Below, one piece after another: positions 11,327-35,369 of a stretch of DNA of 64,000 nt (the first letter of the stretch is position 1; every line of letters starts with the position of its first letter). The notes below the pieces were generated by a model that was not told the origin of the DNA, made no database searches, and worked only from the letters and a program-made list of their open reading frames with translations. This stretch comes from Algoriphagus aquaeductus (GTDB lineage: Bacteria > Bacteroidota > Bacteroidia > Cytophagales > Cyclobacteriaceae): contig NZ_QKTX01000015.1 in the NCBI RefSeq assembly GCF_003253485.1, forward strand, positions 62,001 to 126,000. Reading direction: 5' to 3'. A program made the position numbers and the translations under genes.

Positions 11327-11344
11327 ATTTTTGCAATTTCCCGA

Positions 11345-11367
11345 AATGAGTACCTTTGTTACTCATT
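11345..11367. promoter_or_regulatory. Palindromic operator over the set 1 promoter (copy 1)
   Basis: AATGAGTA and TACTCATT flank a 7-base spacer. The inner bases TACCTTTG (11351-11358) fit the Bacteroidota -7 box TAnnTTTG, and a TTTG at 11330-11333 lies 17 bases upstream as a -33 candidate. The palindrome therefore covers the core promoter, as expected for a repressor site. The next gene, starting 15 bases later, encodes a winged-helix regulator. The same palindrome with the same spacing recurs at 33897-33919. The DNA pattern is direct observation; binding by the regulator is inference. Confidence 0.75.
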
Positions 11368-11381
11368 CTAGAAGATTTTTT

Positions 11382-11900
11382 ATGCTGGAATCATTGATCA
11401 CCTCTAAGACAAGACTGAGGTTACTTATTAAGTTTTTTGTGAACTCACAGAATCACAGTCACCTCCGTGGATTAGCGGAGGAGTTTGGAGAATCAACCAA
11501 TGCTATTCGGAAAGAACTTAACAACCTTACTCAAGCAGGAATTCTTATTTCCCAAAACGAGAAGAATAAAATTGAGTACAAGGCAAACGAAAGGCATCCC
11601 TTCTACACCAACATCCGGGATATTATCCGAAAGCATTTGGGTTTGGATATGCTTTTGGAGCAAATCTTGGATAGAATGGGAGAGGTAGAACAGGTGGTTT
11701 TGACGGGTGATTTGGCCAGAGGTAGCGATACCCGAGTAATCGACGTCTTGGTGGCCGGGGAGAATCTTAATGATGAATATATCAATCACCTCACCCGAAG
11801 AATTGAGCAATTAATCGATCGTAAAGTGATTTTCACCTTGGCATCCGGAAGGGTTTCTTCAGGAGGCTTGGTTCTTTTTGACCGTCAGGCAGGAGTATAA
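11382..11900 (+). CDS. Winged-helix regulator with degenerate nucleotidyltransferase domain
   Basis: This 172-residue protein has an N-terminal winged helix (about 5-70, with the recognition-helix region STNAIRKELNNLTQAGIL) and a C-terminal MNT-type nucleotidyltransferase-like domain (about 98-172). That domain keeps an ARG turn (112-114) but has Gly-Asp where active enzymes have Gly-Ser. It also has only Asp121 of the usual Asp pair, so it is probably a sensor, not an enzyme. Similar proteins stand first in exopolysaccharide loci of Bacteroidota. I chose the ATG at 11382 because the earlier ATG at 11346 lies inside the operator palindrome. It probably represses its own promoter and that of set 2. 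Confidence 0.8.
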   Translation: MLESLITSKTRLRLLIKFFVNSQNHSHLRGLAEEFGESTNAIRKELNNLTQAGILISQNEKNKIEYKANERHPFYTNIRDIIRKHLGLDMLLEQILDRMGEVEQVVLTGDLARGSDTRVIDVLVAGENLNDEYINHLTRRIEQLIDRKVIFTLASGRVSSGGLVLFDRQAGV

Positions 11901-11947
11901 CCTTGCCTATTTATGAAAAAAAATGCCTGGTAGGTTCCGAAGAAAAT

Positions 11948-11967
11948 GGGACTGAAAGGGCGAAGCT
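11948..11967 (+). promoter_or_regulatory. Shared polysaccharide leader element (copy 1)
   Basis: The sequence GGGACTGAAAGGGCGAAGCT lies between the regulator gene and the SLBB export gene. It differs by one base from the copy at 33999-34018 in front of set 2. A CTGGTA stands upstream in both cases (11927-11932 here). Upstream GTTCC (11934-11938) could pair with GGGAC in RNA. It is not coding in the preceding gene. A role in antitermination or as an RNA element is inferred only from its conservation and position. Confidence 0.6.
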
Positions 11968-12051
11968 GTATCAAGTATGATTCGATTCTTTATTCAAAAA
12001 AACACACATTTTCTTACGTTATTTGCCTTGCTGATAAAACAATTCCCCAAG

Positions 12052-14709
12052 ATGATTGGATACCGTTTTAAATTTGGAACCTGGGTACTGCTGTTTTTTT
12101 TCACATTATTTGTTTTTGATGTTGCGGCCCAATCGATGGCGGATATCCAAAATATAAAGGTTGACAATTTGTCTGACTCCCAGATAGAGCAATTGATCAA
12201 AAGAGCAGAGTCAGCAGGAATAAATGAAACGCAACTTGAGGCCTACGCTCTCGAGAGAGGCATGCCCCCGATGGAAGTTGCAAAATTGAGGGACAGAATC
12301 AGGCAACTGAAAAGTGGAGCAGGTCAGTCAAGATCAGGTCTGTCCAGAGATGGGGCCCAAGGAATTCCAGGTGCCTTGAGAGAGATTGAGGGGTTTGAAA
12401 TAGATCCCAAATTATTTGATTCTTTAAGAAAATCTGACCCTTATTATGATCTGACACCAATTCAAAAGAAGATTTTTGGTTACAAACTTTTTCATAATCG
12501 CGAATTGAATTTCAATCCCAGTCTAAACATTGCCACTCCTCCTAACTACGTCATAGGAGCAGGAGATCAACTTTTAATTGATGTATATGGATATTCCCAA
12601 GAATCTTTTGATCTGACGGTTAATCCCGATGGAAAGATCAATATTCCTAACATAGGGCCTATTTCTGTTGGTGGATCTTCCATTTCAGCAGCTACCGCAC
12701 GCATCAAAACTTCACTGTCCAGAATTTATTCAGGTATGCAGGGAAACAATCCCAATACCTTCCTTGAAATCCGCTTGGGAAATATTCGAACCATCTCTGT
12801 ATCAATTGTCGGTGAATTAGTCAAACCGGGAACCTACACACTTCCCTCTTTTGCCTCAGTTTTTAATGCCCTTTTTGCCGCTGGAGGACCTAATGAAAAC
12901 GGTACTTTTAGAGCAATACAAGTTTATCGGAATAACAGACTTCTTCAAGAAGTCGATGTTTATGATTTTTTAATCAAAGGTGAAAATACCGGCAATGTTT
13001 TGCTCAATGACAATGATGTAATTATTGTCCAGCCTTTTCGAAACAGGGTTGAAGTATTAGGTCCGGTTAGAAGAGAGGGATTGTTTGAAATGAAGGAAGG
13101 TGAAACCTTACAGGACCTTATCCGATTTGTGGGCGGATTTGCAAGCAATGGATATAAAGAGCGCGTGACAATAAGGAGAACCACCGATACACAACTTTTG
13201 GTGGAAGACGTGGCTAAGGAAGATTTTGATAAGTTTTATCCCAAAGATGGGGATGAAGTTAAAGTGGGAGAACTATTGAACCGATTTGAAAATCGGGTCC
13301 AATTATCTGGGGCTGTCAACAGACCGGGAGAGTTTGCCATTCCTGAATCTGGAATTGGAGTGAAGGAGTTGATCCAAAAGGGAGAAGGGCTTAGAGGTGA
13401 TGCGTTTACCAAAAGGGTGCTGCTTTACAGAACCAAGGAAAATTTGACCTTGGAGGCTCTATCCCTGGATTTAGAAGGGATAATGAACGGCTCCTTGCCA
13501 GACGTTCAGTTACGAAGGGAGGATATATTGAATGTGCCCAGCATATATGATTTGAGAGAGGAATATTATATCCAAATCTCCGGCGAGGTTAATTTTCCAG
13601 GTGCCTATCCTTTTGGCGAGAATATGACGGTAGCAGACCTTATTGTCAAAGCAGGTGGATTAAAAGAGGCTGCATCTAATTCCTCCATTGAAATTGCCAG
13701 AAGAGTCAGAAATGACATTTCAGGTAAAATAGCCGACTTGATCACTTTAGAAGTAGACTCTGATTTAAAACTCAAACCGGGGGAGTCCTCCATCCGCCTT
13801 CAGCCATTTGATCAGATTTTTATCCGAAAGAGTCCGGGATTTCAAAGGCAAAAACTGGTAACCGTGGAAGGTGAAGTGTTTTTTCCGGGAGAATATTCGT
13901 TGAGTAATGCCAATGAACGCATCTCCGATTTGATCAAACGAGCAGGAGGATTGAACCAGTTTGCCTATGCAAAAGGCGCAACGTTGGTAAGGAGGACTGA
14001 GTATTTTAAAGAAAAGTCAGATTCTGAATTAAAAGAAGAAAACCTGAGAACACTGAAAGAAAACCTTGAAAAGAATAAGGAAAATCTGAATGAAGCGGAA
14101 CAGATTCAATTAAAGCGGATTGAGGAAAAAATTAAGGAAATTGATGATCAGAAATTTGCTGAAGAGCTTCTGAAAAAGAAGTTGGAAGATCAAAATCCAG
14201 ATTTAAGGCTTAATCGTCTGTTGGACGTTTCTGATTCCTCCAAGGTGAAAATTGAATTCAAAGAGCAGGAATTGGTTGGAATCAACTTGCAGTCCATTTT
14301 GGATAATCCAGGGTCATCCCAAGACCTCATACTTTTAGAAGGAGATATCATTAGAGTCCCCAAAGAGTTGCAAACCGTGAGAATGAGGGGGCAAGTTCTT
14401 TTCCCAACTACGGCAAGATTTGAATTGGGAAGAGGATTTAAAAGGTATATAAGCAAATCTGGAGGATTTACCGAGTCAGCTAGAAGGTCAAAATCCTATG
14501 TGGTCTATGCCAATGGAGATGTTAAAAGGACCAGAAGTCTGCTTTTTTATAAGTTCTACCCCAATATTGAGCCAGGTGCAGAGATTATAGTGCCTCAAAA
14601 ACCGGAGAAACCTCCAATCGGACCTCAACAGTGGGTTGCCATCGGTACAGGTTTAGCAACCTTTGGTTTGGTCTTGATTCAGATCATAAATCTTGCTAAT
14701 ACTCCTTAA
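12052..14709 (+). CDS. Large SLBB-domain polysaccharide export protein (Wza-like)
   Basis: From the ATG at 12052 the protein has 885 residues and a clean signal peptide ending in DVAAQ; an upstream in-frame ATG at 11977 would add 25 residues. A polysaccharide-export domain begins near residue 162 (YVIGAGDQLLIDVYGYS). About six SLBB-type repeats begin near 252, 332, 415, 506, 602 and 775, each with the pattern GxVxxPGxY. A charged coiled-coil insert of about 70 residues (about 651-721) splits the last two. A hydrophobic segment (about 859-883) ends the protein. It probably forms the outer-membrane/periplasmic export channel of set 1. It is much longer than enterobacterial Wza (about 380 residues). 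Confidence 0.9.
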   Translation: MIGYRFKFGTWVLLFFFTLFVFDVAAQSMADIQNIKVDNLSDSQIEQLIKRAESAGINETQLEAYALERGMPPMEVAKLRDRIRQLKSGAGQSRSGLSRDGAQGIPGALREIEGFEIDPKLFDSLRKSDPYYDLTPIQKKIFGYKLFHNRELNFNPSLNIATPPNYVIGAGDQLLIDVYGYSQESFDLTVNPDGKINIPNIGPISVGGSSISAATARIKTSLSRIYSGMQGNNPNTFLEIRLGNIRTISVSIVGELVKPGTYTLPSFASVFNALFAAGGPNENGTFRAIQVYRNNRLLQEVDVYDFLIKGENTGNVLLNDNDVIIVQPFRNRVEVLGPVRREGLFEMKEGETLQDLIRFVGGFASNGYKERVTIRRTTDTQLLVEDVAKEDFDKFYPKDGDEVKVGELLNRFENRVQLSGAVNRPGEFAIPESGIGVKELIQKGEGLRGDAFTKRVLLYRTKENLTLEALSLDLEGIMNGSLPDVQLRREDILNVPSIYDLREEYYIQISGEVNFPGAYPFGENMTVADLIVKAGGLKEAASNSSIEIARRVRNDISGKIADLITLEVDSDLKLKPGESSIRLQPFDQIFIRKSPGFQRQKLVTVEGEVFFPGEYSLSNANERISDLIKRAGGLNQFAYAKGATLVRRTEYFKEKSDSELKEENLRTLKENLEKNKENLNEAEQIQLKRIEEKIKEIDDQKFAEELLKKKLEDQNPDLRLNRLLDVSDSSKVKIEFKEQELVGINLQSILDNPGSSQDLILLEGDIIRVPKELQTVRMRGQVLFPTTARFELGRGFKRYISKSGGFTESARRSKSYVVYANGDVKRTRSLLFYKFYPNIEPGAEIIVPQKPEKPPIGPQQWVAIGTGLATFGLVLIQIINLANTP

Positions 14710-32338: not shown

Positions 32339-33823
32339 ATGCCCATGAAAATGGCTTCTCACACAGGGAAATCATTATCTAGGGCATTCCATGTGGCCTT
32401 TAAAAAATCAAATCATAATCACGTGAAAGTAAAAAACATCTGCTGCATTGGTGCAGGCTACGTAGGTGGCCCAACAATGTCTGTTATTGCCCAAAAATGT
32501 CCTGAAATTAAGGTGGTGGTAGTGGATATCAATCAAGAAAGGATTGATGCCTGGAATCATGAAGATCTAAGCCAGCTCCCAGTATATGAGCCTGGTTTGG
32601 ATAAAGTAGTAGCCCAAGCAAGAGGGCGCAACCTTTTTTTCTCGACCGATGTAAATTCGGCCATTGAGGAAGCGGATATGGTTTTTATTTCTGTTAACAC
32701 CCCTACCAAAACATATGGTGAGGGAAAGGGAATGGCAGCAGATCTGAAATGGGTTGAATTATGTGCCAGGCAGATAGCTGAAGCATCCAAATCTGATAAA
32801 ATAGTAGTTGAAAAATCTACTTTACCTGTTAGAACTGCTCAGGCTGTGAAGGATATTTTACATAACACCGGAAATGGGTTAAACTTCCAAATCCTCTCAA
32901 ATCCAGAGTTTCTGGCAGAAGGTACTGCTATCCCTGATCTTGAAAATCCCGACAGGGTTCTAATAGGTGGAGATGATACTCCTGAAGGAAGAGAGGCCAT
33001 TCAGGCATTAGTGGACGTGTATGGTACTTGGGTGCCTAGGGAAAAAATCCTTACGACCAATGTCTGGTCTTCCGAGCTTTCCAAACTGACCGCAAATGCC
33101 TTCCTTGCGCAGCGTGTTTCGTCTATCAATGCCATATCTGAGTTATGTGAGGCTACAGGCGCAGATGTGGAAGAAGTGGCCAAAGCAATAGGAACTGACT
33201 CTAGGATTGGATCTAAATTTTTGAAAGCTTCAGTTGGTTTCGGTGGTTCTTGCTTCCAAAAAGATATTCTCAATATGGTCTACATCTGCCGCAATTATCA
33301 ATTGAACGAGGTGGCGGATTATTGGGAGCAAGTGATCAAAATGAATGACCATCAAAAAGTGAGGTTTGCCAAAAAGATCATTAAGAATTTGTACAATACT
33401 GTTAGCGGAAAGAAAATCGCATTCTTGGGATGGGCATTTAAAAAAGATACCAACGATACGCGTGAATCTGCGGCCATTTATGTCGCAGATTACCTGCTGA
33501 GCGAACGTGCCAATATCTGTGTGTATGATCCGAAAGTTCCGAAAGAAAAAGTATTTACCGACTTAGATTATTTAAACACCCGTTCTTCTGAAGAAAATAG
33601 GAAGTTGGTTAGCGTAGTAAATGATCCTTATGAAGCCTGCAAAGGAGCTCATGCAGTAGCGATTCTTACCGAATGGGATGAATTTAAAATCCTAAACTGG
33701 GAGCAAATTAATGATTTGATGCTCAAGCCAGCCAACTTATTCGACGGAAGAAACATTTTGAATTCTTCAGAAATGAGTCGCTTAGGATTCAGATTTCATG
33801 CGATTGGGAAGGCTGATAAATAG
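32339..33823 (+). CDS. UDP-glucose 6-dehydrogenase, eukaryotic-like type
   Basis: The enzyme oxidises UDP-glucose to UDP-glucuronate with NAD. Motifs are [12 protein letters not shown] (Rossmann), [39 protein letters not shown] and the catalytic Cys305 in [13 protein letters not shown]. The sequence resembles the animal/plant-type enzymes, which also occur in Bacteroidota. The ATG at 32339 gives 494 residues; the first 28 are not family-like and a GTG at 32423 would remove them. It stands about 100 bases after the Wzi gene with no terminator between, so it could be the last gene of set 1. Confidence 0.93.
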
Positions 33824-33896: not shown

Positions 33897-33919
33897 AATG
33901 AGTAATTTTGGTACTCATT
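33897..33919. promoter_or_regulatory. Palindromic operator over the set 2 promoter (copy 2)
   Basis: AATGAGTA and TACTCATT with a 7-base spacer repeat copy 1 (11345-11367) exactly in arms and spacing, while the spacer bases differ. The inner TAATTTTG (33903-33910) again fits the TAnnTTTG -7 box. The nearest upstream TTTG (33885-33888) is only 14 bases away, so the -33 element is weaker than in copy 1. Confidence 0.72.
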
Positions 33920-33998
33920 ATTTATCAAGGAAGTTAAAAAGATAGTTTTTTCGCTCTGGTACTAGTAGGGTTTTTCTCTCACAAAACAGCTAAGTCCT

Positions 33999-34018
33999 GG
34001 GACCGAAAGGGCGAAGCT
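33999..34018 (+). promoter_or_regulatory. Shared polysaccharide leader element (copy 2)
   Basis: GGGACCGAAAGGGCGAAGCT matches copy 1 (11948-11967) in 19 of 20 bases. The one change, C for T, keeps a possible CC/GG pairing around GAAA (U-G in copy 1). CTGGTA stands upstream (33956-33961). It would lie in the 5' untranslated RNA of set 2, about 80 bases after the promoter box. Confidence 0.6.
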
Positions 34019-34064
34019 TTAAGTTTTTACAAGAAGATAAAATTTAATTTAACAAAGTAGTTTC

Positions 34065-35369
34065 ATGTTGACACCACTTGAAGATGTGAAAATCGGGGTA
34101 ATAGGCCTTGGTTATGTAGGATTGCCTCTTGCAGTTGAATTTGCAAAACAGTTTCCTGTCATAGGGTTTGATATTGATAAAAAAAGAGTGGCTGATCTTC
34201 AGCAAGGAAAAGATTATACCTTGGAAGTTGAAGATGAGCTACTTTCTGCTGTATTGACTTCAAATTCGCCTTCAAAGGATCAAAAAGGCCTTTTTCCTAC
34301 TTTTGAGCCTGAGGAGCTGAAAGATTGTCACATTTATATCGTGACCGTTCCGACTCCAACAGACAAGCATAACCGACCTGTCTTGACCCCGATGCTTAAG
34401 GCTTCCGAGAATATTGGCAAATTCCTTAAGAGGGGAGATGTGGTAATTTATGAGTCGACTGTCTATCCTGGAGTGACTGAGGAAGAGTGTGTTCCTGTGC
34501 TTGAAAAAGTTTCCGGATTAGTATATAACGTGGACTTTTTTGCAGGATACTCTCCTGAGCGAATCAACCCCGGAGACAAGGAACACACAGTTGCCAAGAT
34601 TTTAAAAGTCACTTCCGGAAGTACTCCTGAAGTTGCTGAATATGTAGATCAGCTATATCAAAAAGTGATCACCGCAGGTACTCACAAAGCATCTTCAATC
34701 AAAGTGGCTGAAGCGGCAAAGGTCATTGAAAATTCCCAACGGGATATCAACATTGCCTTTGTCAATGAGCTTTCGAAAATATTTAACCTTTTAGGAATAG
34801 ACACCCACGAAGTATTGGAAGCGGCAGGAACCAAATGGAACTTTCTCAAATTCAAACCCGGATTAGTCGGAGGGCATTGCATTGGTGTGGATCCTTTCTA
34901 TCTTGCACAAAAAGCGCAGGAAGTCGGATATCATCCTGAAATCATTTTGGCTGGAAGACGACTAAATGATAGTATGGGCAAGCATGTTGCCACTGAGGTT
35001 ATCAAGCTGATGATGCGAAAAGACCTAAAGGTGATAGATTCCAAAGTGCTCATTCTAGGATTCACGTTCAAGGAAGATTGTCCGGATGTACGAAATACAC
35101 GAGTAATTGATATCTACAAAGAATTGAAGTCATTTGATATGGAGGTCGATGTCTATGACCCGTGGGCTAATCCAAAGGAGGTAGCTCATGAATACGGGAT
35201 TTCTATTTCTTCAGGTGATCAAGCCCCTGATTTATCAGAATATTCGGCAATCATTCTAGCAGTAGCGCATAGGCAGTTTAAAAATTTATCTTTAAAAAAA
35301 TCTTTTTCACAAGTCTTATTTGATGTTAAGGGGATATTGGAGAAAGATAAGGTAGATTCTAGATTGTAA
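34065..35369 (+). CDS. UDP-N-acetylhexosamine 6-dehydrogenase (WbpO/TviB/WbpA-like)
   Basis: The 434-residue nucleotide-sugar dehydrogenase has [49 protein letters not shown] and Cys272 in [17 protein letters not shown]. That last segment is typical of the UDP-HexNAc branch (WbpO, TviB, WbpA), not of UDP-glucose dehydrogenases. It would make UDP-GlcNAcA or UDP-GalNAcA. It is the first gene of set 2, yet its product could also feed the WbpB/D/E-like enzymes of set 1, which has no such dehydrogenase of its own. Confidence 0.92.

Follow-up and report, generated by a model that had tools for sequence, protein, structure and literature searches.

A two-part ops-like leader element linked to UpxY of the NusG family ahead of polysaccharide operons in Algoriphagus aquaeductus and other Bacteroidota

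The question raised by this locus is why almost the same 20 bases stand ahead of two large polysaccharide gene sets of Algoriphagus aquaeductus, and what might read them. The window, a stretch of 64,000 nucleotides of contig NZ_QKTX01000015.1, contains GGGACTGAAAGGGCGAAGCT at 11948-11967 (copy 1) and GGGACCGAAAGGGCGAAGCT at 33999-34018 (copy 2), both on the + strand, as are the genes downstream of them. The copies differ by a single C/T change. None would be expected by chance in 64 kb, and 100 shuffles gave no match with up to three mismatches allowed, which confirms the repetition reported in an earlier note. That note had also described the sequence as non-coding, as lying ahead of polysaccharide genes and as belonging to no named riboswitch, and these points stand. 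Copy 1 is intergenic, between a stop codon at 11900 and an ATG at 11977, as is copy 2, which is flanked by the stop codon at 33823 and the ATG at 34065. From the final GC of the predicted hairpin described below to the ATG there are 10 nt in copy 1, where an SLBB/Poly_export gene follows, and 47 nt in copy 2, where a UDP-sugar dehydrogenase gene follows. An Rfam scan of the window returned no match at gathering scores.

Each of these genes opens a polysaccharide gene set (Table 1). The first set reaches to about 33823; nine further genes were scanned there and six had a family match, namely DegT (2), hexapeptide transferase, Polysacc_synt flippase, glycosyltransferase and Wzi. The second set extends to at least 63002. 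Poly_export and AAA_31/GNVR genes are next after its dehydrogenase gene, and nine of ten further genes scanned were matched, including those for an ABC transporter, glycosyltransferases, Asn_synthase and NeuB. The small regulator gene upstream of copy 1 had no NCBIfam match, and it was rejected as the source of a cognate NusG-like factor because its product has a weak HTH match instead. Genes of the same cluster of small regulators are the upstream gene at 25 of the 101 sites tabulated for the genus set (see below).

Table 1. Coordinates of the element, its predicted parts and the neighboring genes in the window
Feature	Position	Strand	Remarks
Small winged-helix-like regulator gene	11331..11900	+	Upstream of copy 1; weak HTH_DeoR match, 21.3 bits (cut-off 21)
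Copy 1, upstream box TGGGACTGA	11947..11955	+	Box GKGA(C/G)T; predicted to lie in duplex DNA behind the paused polymerase
Copy 1, ops-like 12-mer GGCGAAGCTGTA	11959..11970	+	Length and ends as in the ops 12-mer; matches RGCGNAGCYRTR of UpxY-linked sites
Copy 1, hairpin GC-GAA-GC	11960-11966	+	Predicted pause base T11 = 11969
SLBB/Poly_export (Wza-like) export protein gene	11977..14709	+	First gene behind copy 1
Copy 2, upstream box TGGGACCGA	33998..34006	+	
Copy 2, ops-like 12-mer GGCGAAGCTTTA	34010..34021	+	Hairpin 34011-34017; predicted pause base T11 = 34020
UDP-glucose/GDP-mannose dehydrogenase family gene	34065..35369	+	First gene behind copy 2

Two other features of these leaders were seen. 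An inverted repeat, ATGAGTA-ATTTTGG-TACTCAT, was noticed by eye at 33898-33919, about 80 bp before copy 2, and also at L088, L091, L101 and other loci. Its stricter form, the palindrome GAGTAA-n-TTACTC, lies 34-173 bp before the element in 26 of the 101 sites, often at -34 to -37 where the next gene is a small HTH regulator, and is possibly the operator of that regulator. A GCTA(A/G)G(T/C)(C/A)C-like stretch was likewise seen by eye 5-15 nt before the box, in the window (11929-11938 and 33989-33997) and at many sites of the genus; it may be the -7 element of a promoter, in which case transcription would start near the box.

The element is not confined to the window. The genome (4.9 Mb) has five copies with 0 mismatches to GASYGANNNGGCGRAGC; its three one-mismatch matches fall below the five of a reversed-pattern control. 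With up to two mismatches, the 19-mer was found in 27 of 58 genomes, A. aquaeductus included, and 25 of these are among the 36 genomes of the genus, which hold 99 sites versus 6 for the reversed pattern. The 11 genomes of the genus without the strict element (G002, G003, G005-G008, G011-G013, G020 and G027) are 2.2-2.8 Mb in size and 67-91% complete; six have two NusG-family genes and five have one. The tabulated set of 101 sites consists of the 99 genus sites, one site of A. aquaeductus with three mismatches (L165) and one in G045, a genome from another family of the order; a two-mismatch match in G047 was left out. A gene of at least 150 aa follows within 1.3 kb on the same strand at 93 of the 101, on the opposite strand at 3 and not at all at 5. 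For the consensus and the PSSM, three two-mismatch sites that looked unrelated (L161, L069 and L139) were excluded, and the remaining 98 include L165 and the G045 site.

Conservation in these 98 sites continues beyond the pattern used to find them. The base before the box, a position outside the pattern, is T in 93, and the bases 3' to the 19-nt pattern, none of which it contains, are T (90), G (67) or T (23), T (89) and A (52) or G (33). The YRTR tail, also outside the pattern, is found in 61 of the 98, whereas 3.9% would be expected from composition. The full unit is thus T-GKGASYGA-n3-GGCGAAGCTGTR, a two-part element of about 24 nt. The 20-mer of the earlier note is real but is the middle of this unit, so that its ends are not the boundaries of the element.

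Further copies thus occur in related genomes, and they too mostly precede polysaccharide genes, as the earlier note had required. Of the tabulated sites, 98 had a downstream gene, a different set from the 98 of the consensus. These genes were classified by scanning one representative per cluster, and 15 of them are in clusters that were unscanned or without a family. At 67 sites the gene belongs to a cluster represented by one for sugar-nucleotide synthesis or export (UDP-sugar dehydrogenase 25, SLBB export 23, ManC-type nucleotidyl transferase 10, DegT 4, Poly_export 3, epimerase 2); four other sites have genes in MBOAT or ABC2-membrane clusters, and at twelve the gene encodes a 168-228-aa relative of the small HTH regulator. 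The sole match in G045 is 125 bp behind a upxY gene and before a polysaccharide export gene. In Algoriphagus formosus, three copies of the element are arranged in tandem with a spacing of 156-158 bp (L279, 7608-7941). Exact matches to GKGACTGANNNGGCGAAGCYGTG numbered 0 in the one viral collection scanned, and spread by phage is therefore not favoured.

The genome has two NusG-family genes from which a reader of the element might come. One, in front of ribosomal protein genes, is canonical NusG (TIGR00922, 184 bits). The other (L008, 1489-1986) encodes a UpxY of 165 aa that scores 161.5 bits with NF033644 (cut-off 100) and far below the cut-offs of the RfaH, LoaP and NusG models (62.8 bits versus 144.5 for RfaH). 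This single upxY is an orphan: it stands alone on another contig than the window, adjoins an ACR_tran (RND) gene and has no element within 500 bp (L311). In an AlphaFold2 model of the protein, the NGN domain has pLDDT values of 87-98 by blocks and the KOW domain, predicted as beta, 59-75. A Foldseek search with the model ranked structures of NusG at the top; its other matches included ops-bound RfaH (8phk, 5ond, 8pfg, 8pen and 8pib). A W-S-D-R loop at residues 41-44 lies between model strands 34-40 and 45-51; canonical NusG of the same genome has R-N-G-K at this position. Our reading of the alignment is that the loop is probably equivalent to a beta-hairpin of NusG that, according to the available part of PMC7593976, may meet upstream DNA. 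W, D and R are each present in 48 of 48 UpxYs of element-linked loci and in 92-93 of 97 others; being kept also where no element is adjacent, the loop does not explain the choice of element.

The link between the element and UpxY was examined from both sides. Named-species genomes were scanned with GKGASYGAAAGGGCGAAGCT, which found at least 119 loci; about four chance matches to a 20-mer would be expected in that collection by arithmetic. Among the matches listed, 116 are from Bacteroidota (81 Cytophagales, 9 Bacteroidales, 8 Sphingobacteriales, 1 Flavobacteriales and 17 unplaced) and 3 from Acidobacteriota. Twenty of the 119 listed loci hold a gene matching the A. aquaeductus UpxY (E<1e-4), in all 20 on the same strand, and in 17 of these the element starts 36-393 bp behind the gene. 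All six of the 20 loci that were scanned with NCBIfam pass the UpxY cut-off, including both from Acidobacteriota. The exact Acidobacteriota 20-mers come from an Acidobacteriaceae MAG (L254) and two Vicinamibacterales MAGs (L284 and L185), with a same-strand UpxY-family gene in two of the three listed loci, a count to be read beside the four or so chance matches of the whole collection. In L254 about 30 bp separate the end of the element from the UpxY frame that follows; in L284 the element is 1.2 kb behind the frame.

On the protein side, UpxY loci were chosen blind to the element and searched with G[GT]GA[CG][TC]-N4-8-[AG]GCGNAGC within about 500 bp; run on the window, this pattern found only the two known copies. 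The loci examined were a subset (30+60 and 15+40), of which the 60 and the 40 were hand-picked for family spread. A first, phylum-wide sample of 90 loci had the element in sense orientation in 29 and in antisense in 0, and the PSSM from the 101-site set (three rows out) at 15 bits or more gave 23 sense and 0 antisense in the same loci. A second sample of 55 had 19 sense and 1 antisense. Pooled, 48 of 145 UpxY loci, from 20 families, have a sense element and 1 of 145 an antisense one. The single antisense match (L433, family f74) looks full and lies on the strand opposite to upxY, as if for a divergent operon. No element was found on either strand of the 30 canonical-NusG loci, up to 3.3 kb long, that served as a control.

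The 48 UpxY-linked sites repeat the consensus of the genus. T precedes the box in all 48, the second box base is T in 37 and G in 11, the fifth is C in 45 and G in 3, and the spacer is 5 (33 sites), 6 (14) or 7 (1) nt. The first stem-flanking base is G (41) or A (7) and the loop base A (38) or G (10). After the hairpin, at positions that the search did not fix, Y, R, T and R occur in 43, 43, 45 and 44 sites, and the complete YRTR tail in 37. The element is behind upxY in 32 loci, and in the 30 where a next gene was found the distance to its start has a median of 46.5 nt (range 11-1035). The commonest next genes are Asn_synthase (8), UDP-sugar dehydrogenase (8) and Polysacc_synt_2 and epimerase (4 each), in overlapping assignments.

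Elements are clustered yet scattered over the UpxY tree, on which the element label changes 21 times versus 40.5 in shuffles. No two-part match was found within about 500 bp in 97 of the 145 loci, about five of which have near-variants. The box alone, [GT]GACTGA, is hardly enriched in the element-less loci (11 sense versus 9 antisense), so in many clades the targets are elsewhere or different. The clades f36, f35, f40, f106, f116 and f125 have no element beside the upxY genes examined; since f35 and f36 are among the families matched in the genome-wide search described next, their sites are elsewhere. When the 60 element-less loci of the first sample were compared by k-mers to find a different common motif, the result was TGGTATGC, which we take to be coding for the conserved W-Y of UpxY, and low-complexity words.

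Co-occurrence was assessed over 395 Bacteroidota genomes with GTGACTN{5,6}GGCGRAGCYNT, a pattern restricted to the GTGACT form that misses A. aquaeductus, whose own copies have GGGA. It found 85 sites in 69 genomes versus 6 for the reversed pattern. UpxY is above its cut-off in 210 of the genomes, and the GTGACT form is present in 68 of these versus 1 of the 185 others (Fisher p=2e-20, kinship ignored, table crossed by hand). The sole UpxY-less genome with this form is G244, of 1.6 Mb. Within family f25 the counts are 9 of 20 genomes with UpxY versus 0 of 20 without (Fisher p=0.001, kinship again ignored and table crossed by hand). The strict 20-mer, with one mismatch allowed, is in 9 of the 395, and all 9 pass the UpxY cut-off. 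One genome, G032, has five element matches and no NusG-family gene in its 680 contigs; as even canonical NusG is missing, this is probably an assembly gap. A binding site for a NusG-like factor was one of the functions suggested for the 20-mer at the outset, and adjacency and co-occurrence together strongly support it.

The second part of the element invites comparison with ops, the 12-nt site of E. coli RfaH, GGCGGTAGCGTG (PMC5995543, in excerpt). According to the available part of PMC11001881, cryo-EM shows a non-template hairpin at ops with the pairs G2:C9, C3:G8 and G4:A7 (Saenger XI, 'sheared' in our wording) and a loop of G5-T6, with RNAP paused at U11. The UpxY-linked RGCGNAGCYRTR also has 12 nt, starts with GG, ends with GTG, lies in the leader near the start codon and precedes polysaccharide-type operons. 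Judged by sequence, it shares the GC stem and the sheared G.A pair; GCG and AGC are present in 48 of 48 sites, but they were fixed by the search expression, so this constancy proves nothing and offers no proof by covariation. There are also distinct differences. The predicted loop is one purine (GAA or GGA) rather than G-T, an extra Y after the hairpin restores the length so that T11 and R12 fall in the same places as in ops, the TGKGACTGA box is added 5-6 nt upstream, and the protein is UpxY, not RfaH. Although any loop base was allowed, none of the 48 UpxY-linked sites has the ops-type T; one looser site has GTA (L309).

Evidence bearing on the hairpin itself is mixed. The outer pair of the 48 sites is G-T in 19, G-C in 17, A-T in 6, G-A in 3, G-G in 2 and A-C in 1, an association that is only suggestive (Fisher p=0.10, kinship ignored). 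With the DNA parameters of ViennaRNA the 12-mer of the element folds at 0 kcal/mol, compared with -0.9 for that of ops; we take this to be a limit of the parameters, yet it is a result against the hairpin. Hairpins of this kind are called extraordinarily stable, and the Tm given for CGCGAAGCG is 88.5 C (PMC10527192, in excerpt); GCGAAGC is the core of the P1 promoter hairpin of the phage N4 vRNAP, ...GTTGCGAAGCAAC... (PMC12633501, in excerpt). The core is identical to that of the d(GCGAAGC) mini-hairpin, but the N4 structure is a phage promoter hairpin with a longer stem, whereas the element is in a leader and has a two-pair stem. Pairing of GTGAC/GGGAC with a CAC/TCC a few bases upstream was dropped, since in the UpxY-linked sites the T follows a mixed, A-rich sequence.

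From these observations we consider, with a probability of about 0.86, that the element is a recruitment site for UpxY, ops-like as for RfaH and with an added upstream box. The pausing, hairpin formation, contacts and antitermination that make up this reading we infer from the sequence. A polymerase entering a polysaccharide operon would pause with the T of GCYRTR (11969 and 34020) as the last copied base. The non-template strand in the bubble would fold into a mini-hairpin of two base pairs, GC-G(A/G)A-GC, closed by a sheared G.A pair and exposing one purine, on which the NGN domain of UpxY would dock. With RNAP at this pause, the box would occupy roughly -23 to -15 of the upstream duplex, a short way behind the bubble, where UpxY would read TGKGACTGA, probably through its W-S-D-R-K-K beta-hairpin loop. 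UpxY is said to have been found by Saba in 2024 to read paused RNAP through exposed non-template DNA and the upstream duplex. By remaining on the polymerase, it would prevent termination across a gene set of 20-30 kb. The orphan UpxY, encoded alone on its own contig, would act in trans on the five leaders. Contact of UpxY with the upstream duplex has been observed, according to the available part of PMC12691694, which cites Saba 2024.

It is unlikely, though worth weighing, that the element works instead as nascent RNA, with UpxY or another factor binding the transcript UGKGACUGA...GGCGAAGCU. LoaP of Bacillus, like UpxY a NusG paralog, is also associated with a long operon through an element in the leader, and according to excerpts of the literature this element is an RNA hairpin of the UNCG type that LoaP binds. 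The strand specificity of the present element and its position before genes on its own strand would fit such a reading, and the box would be just leaving the exit channel at the predicted pause. Against this, RNA folding of the two 25-mers of the window was no better than that of shuffles (z +0.81 and +0.71), the stem would have only two or three pairs, and an RNA site needs neither the 12-nt ops-like register nor the YRTR tail. The element thus differs from the LoaP site in having no predicted stable RNA hairpin and no Rfam match, and the RNA structure proposed as one option in the earlier note is unsupported.

We think it very improbable that the element is a DNA initiation site, such as an unusual sigma promoter or operator of the polysaccharide operons, with which UpxY merely co-occurs. 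It is indeed close to the first gene, as the distances in the window and the median for the 30 loci illustrate, and in the genus it is often a few bases behind the GCTA(A/G)G stretch, as seen by eye. However, the spacing between its halves is 5 or 6 nt in all but one of 48 loci, far tighter than that of -35 and -10 elements, it is in sense orientation in 48 cases versus 1, and the link with UpxY holds in 20 families, across genomes and within f25. The GG...GTG of the element also resembles the consensus pause. That it is a plain consensus pause or a translation signal of polysaccharide leaders, unread by UpxY, is scarcely credible even though the ops hairpin alone stabilises the paused state in E. 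coli (PMC11001881, in excerpt), for this would explain neither the near-absence from UpxY-less genomes (1 of 185) nor the adjacency to upxY in 48 of 145 loci, and plain pauses are not known to involve such a box.

UpxY recruitment, the favoured reading, draws on known biology, since UpxY and ops-type recruitment are both known already. Control of capsule operons by UpxY/UpxZ in gut Bacteroides was reportedly described by Chatzidaki-Livanis in 2009 and 2010 and by Saba in 2024. Published excerpts present UpxY as an antiterminator acting with the 5' leader of polysaccharide operons in gut Bacteroides, each UpxY of B. fragilis activating the operon in which it resides. The present system resembles these in the antiterminator family, the polysaccharide-operon 5' leaders and the upstream-duplex contact reported for UpxY. 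It differs in that an orphan upxY and five near-uniform leaders occur in one genome, and in that one consensus is found in at least 20 families whereas the UpxYs of B. fragilis serve resident operons. In gut Bacteroides, the operon that is served begins with upxY, followed by upxZ; here upxY is instead in the element-free neighborhood of an RND gene described above. The available portions of the UpxY literature describe no phylum-wide two-part consensus, although Saba 2024 may describe a related motif, and contain neither a GNA-loop hairpin in the ops register nor an orphan UpxY with five target leaders. Searches for GGGCGAAGC, and for GGCGAAGC with leader and polysaccharide, brought up nothing relevant-looking in the text available.

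The element very probably makes RNA polymerase pause and take up UpxY, so that a long cluster is read to its end. A paper of 2020, as excerpted, names E. coli RfaH as the sole representative whose recruitment is known in detail (PMC7593976), and the ops structures of 2024 raise the question, in the part available, of whether further factors are recruited by non-template hairpins that differ in their loop bases (PMC11001881). The odds seem even that Bacteroidota, and possibly Acidobacteriota, share one ancient two-part UpxY code, in which a duplex TGKGACTGA box, read by the WSDR loop, is combined with a GNA-loop mini-hairpin that shows a single purine in the ops pause register. If so, RfaH and ops would be one dialect, loop length and loop base would choose the NusG paralog, and orphan UpxYs would govern RfaH-like regulons in trans. 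A consensus by which UpxY sites can be searched for would make UpxY regulons predictable across Bacteroidota and suggests that a DNA hairpin code may be more general among NusG paralogs, for which one orphan UpxY with five target leaders would be a simple test system.
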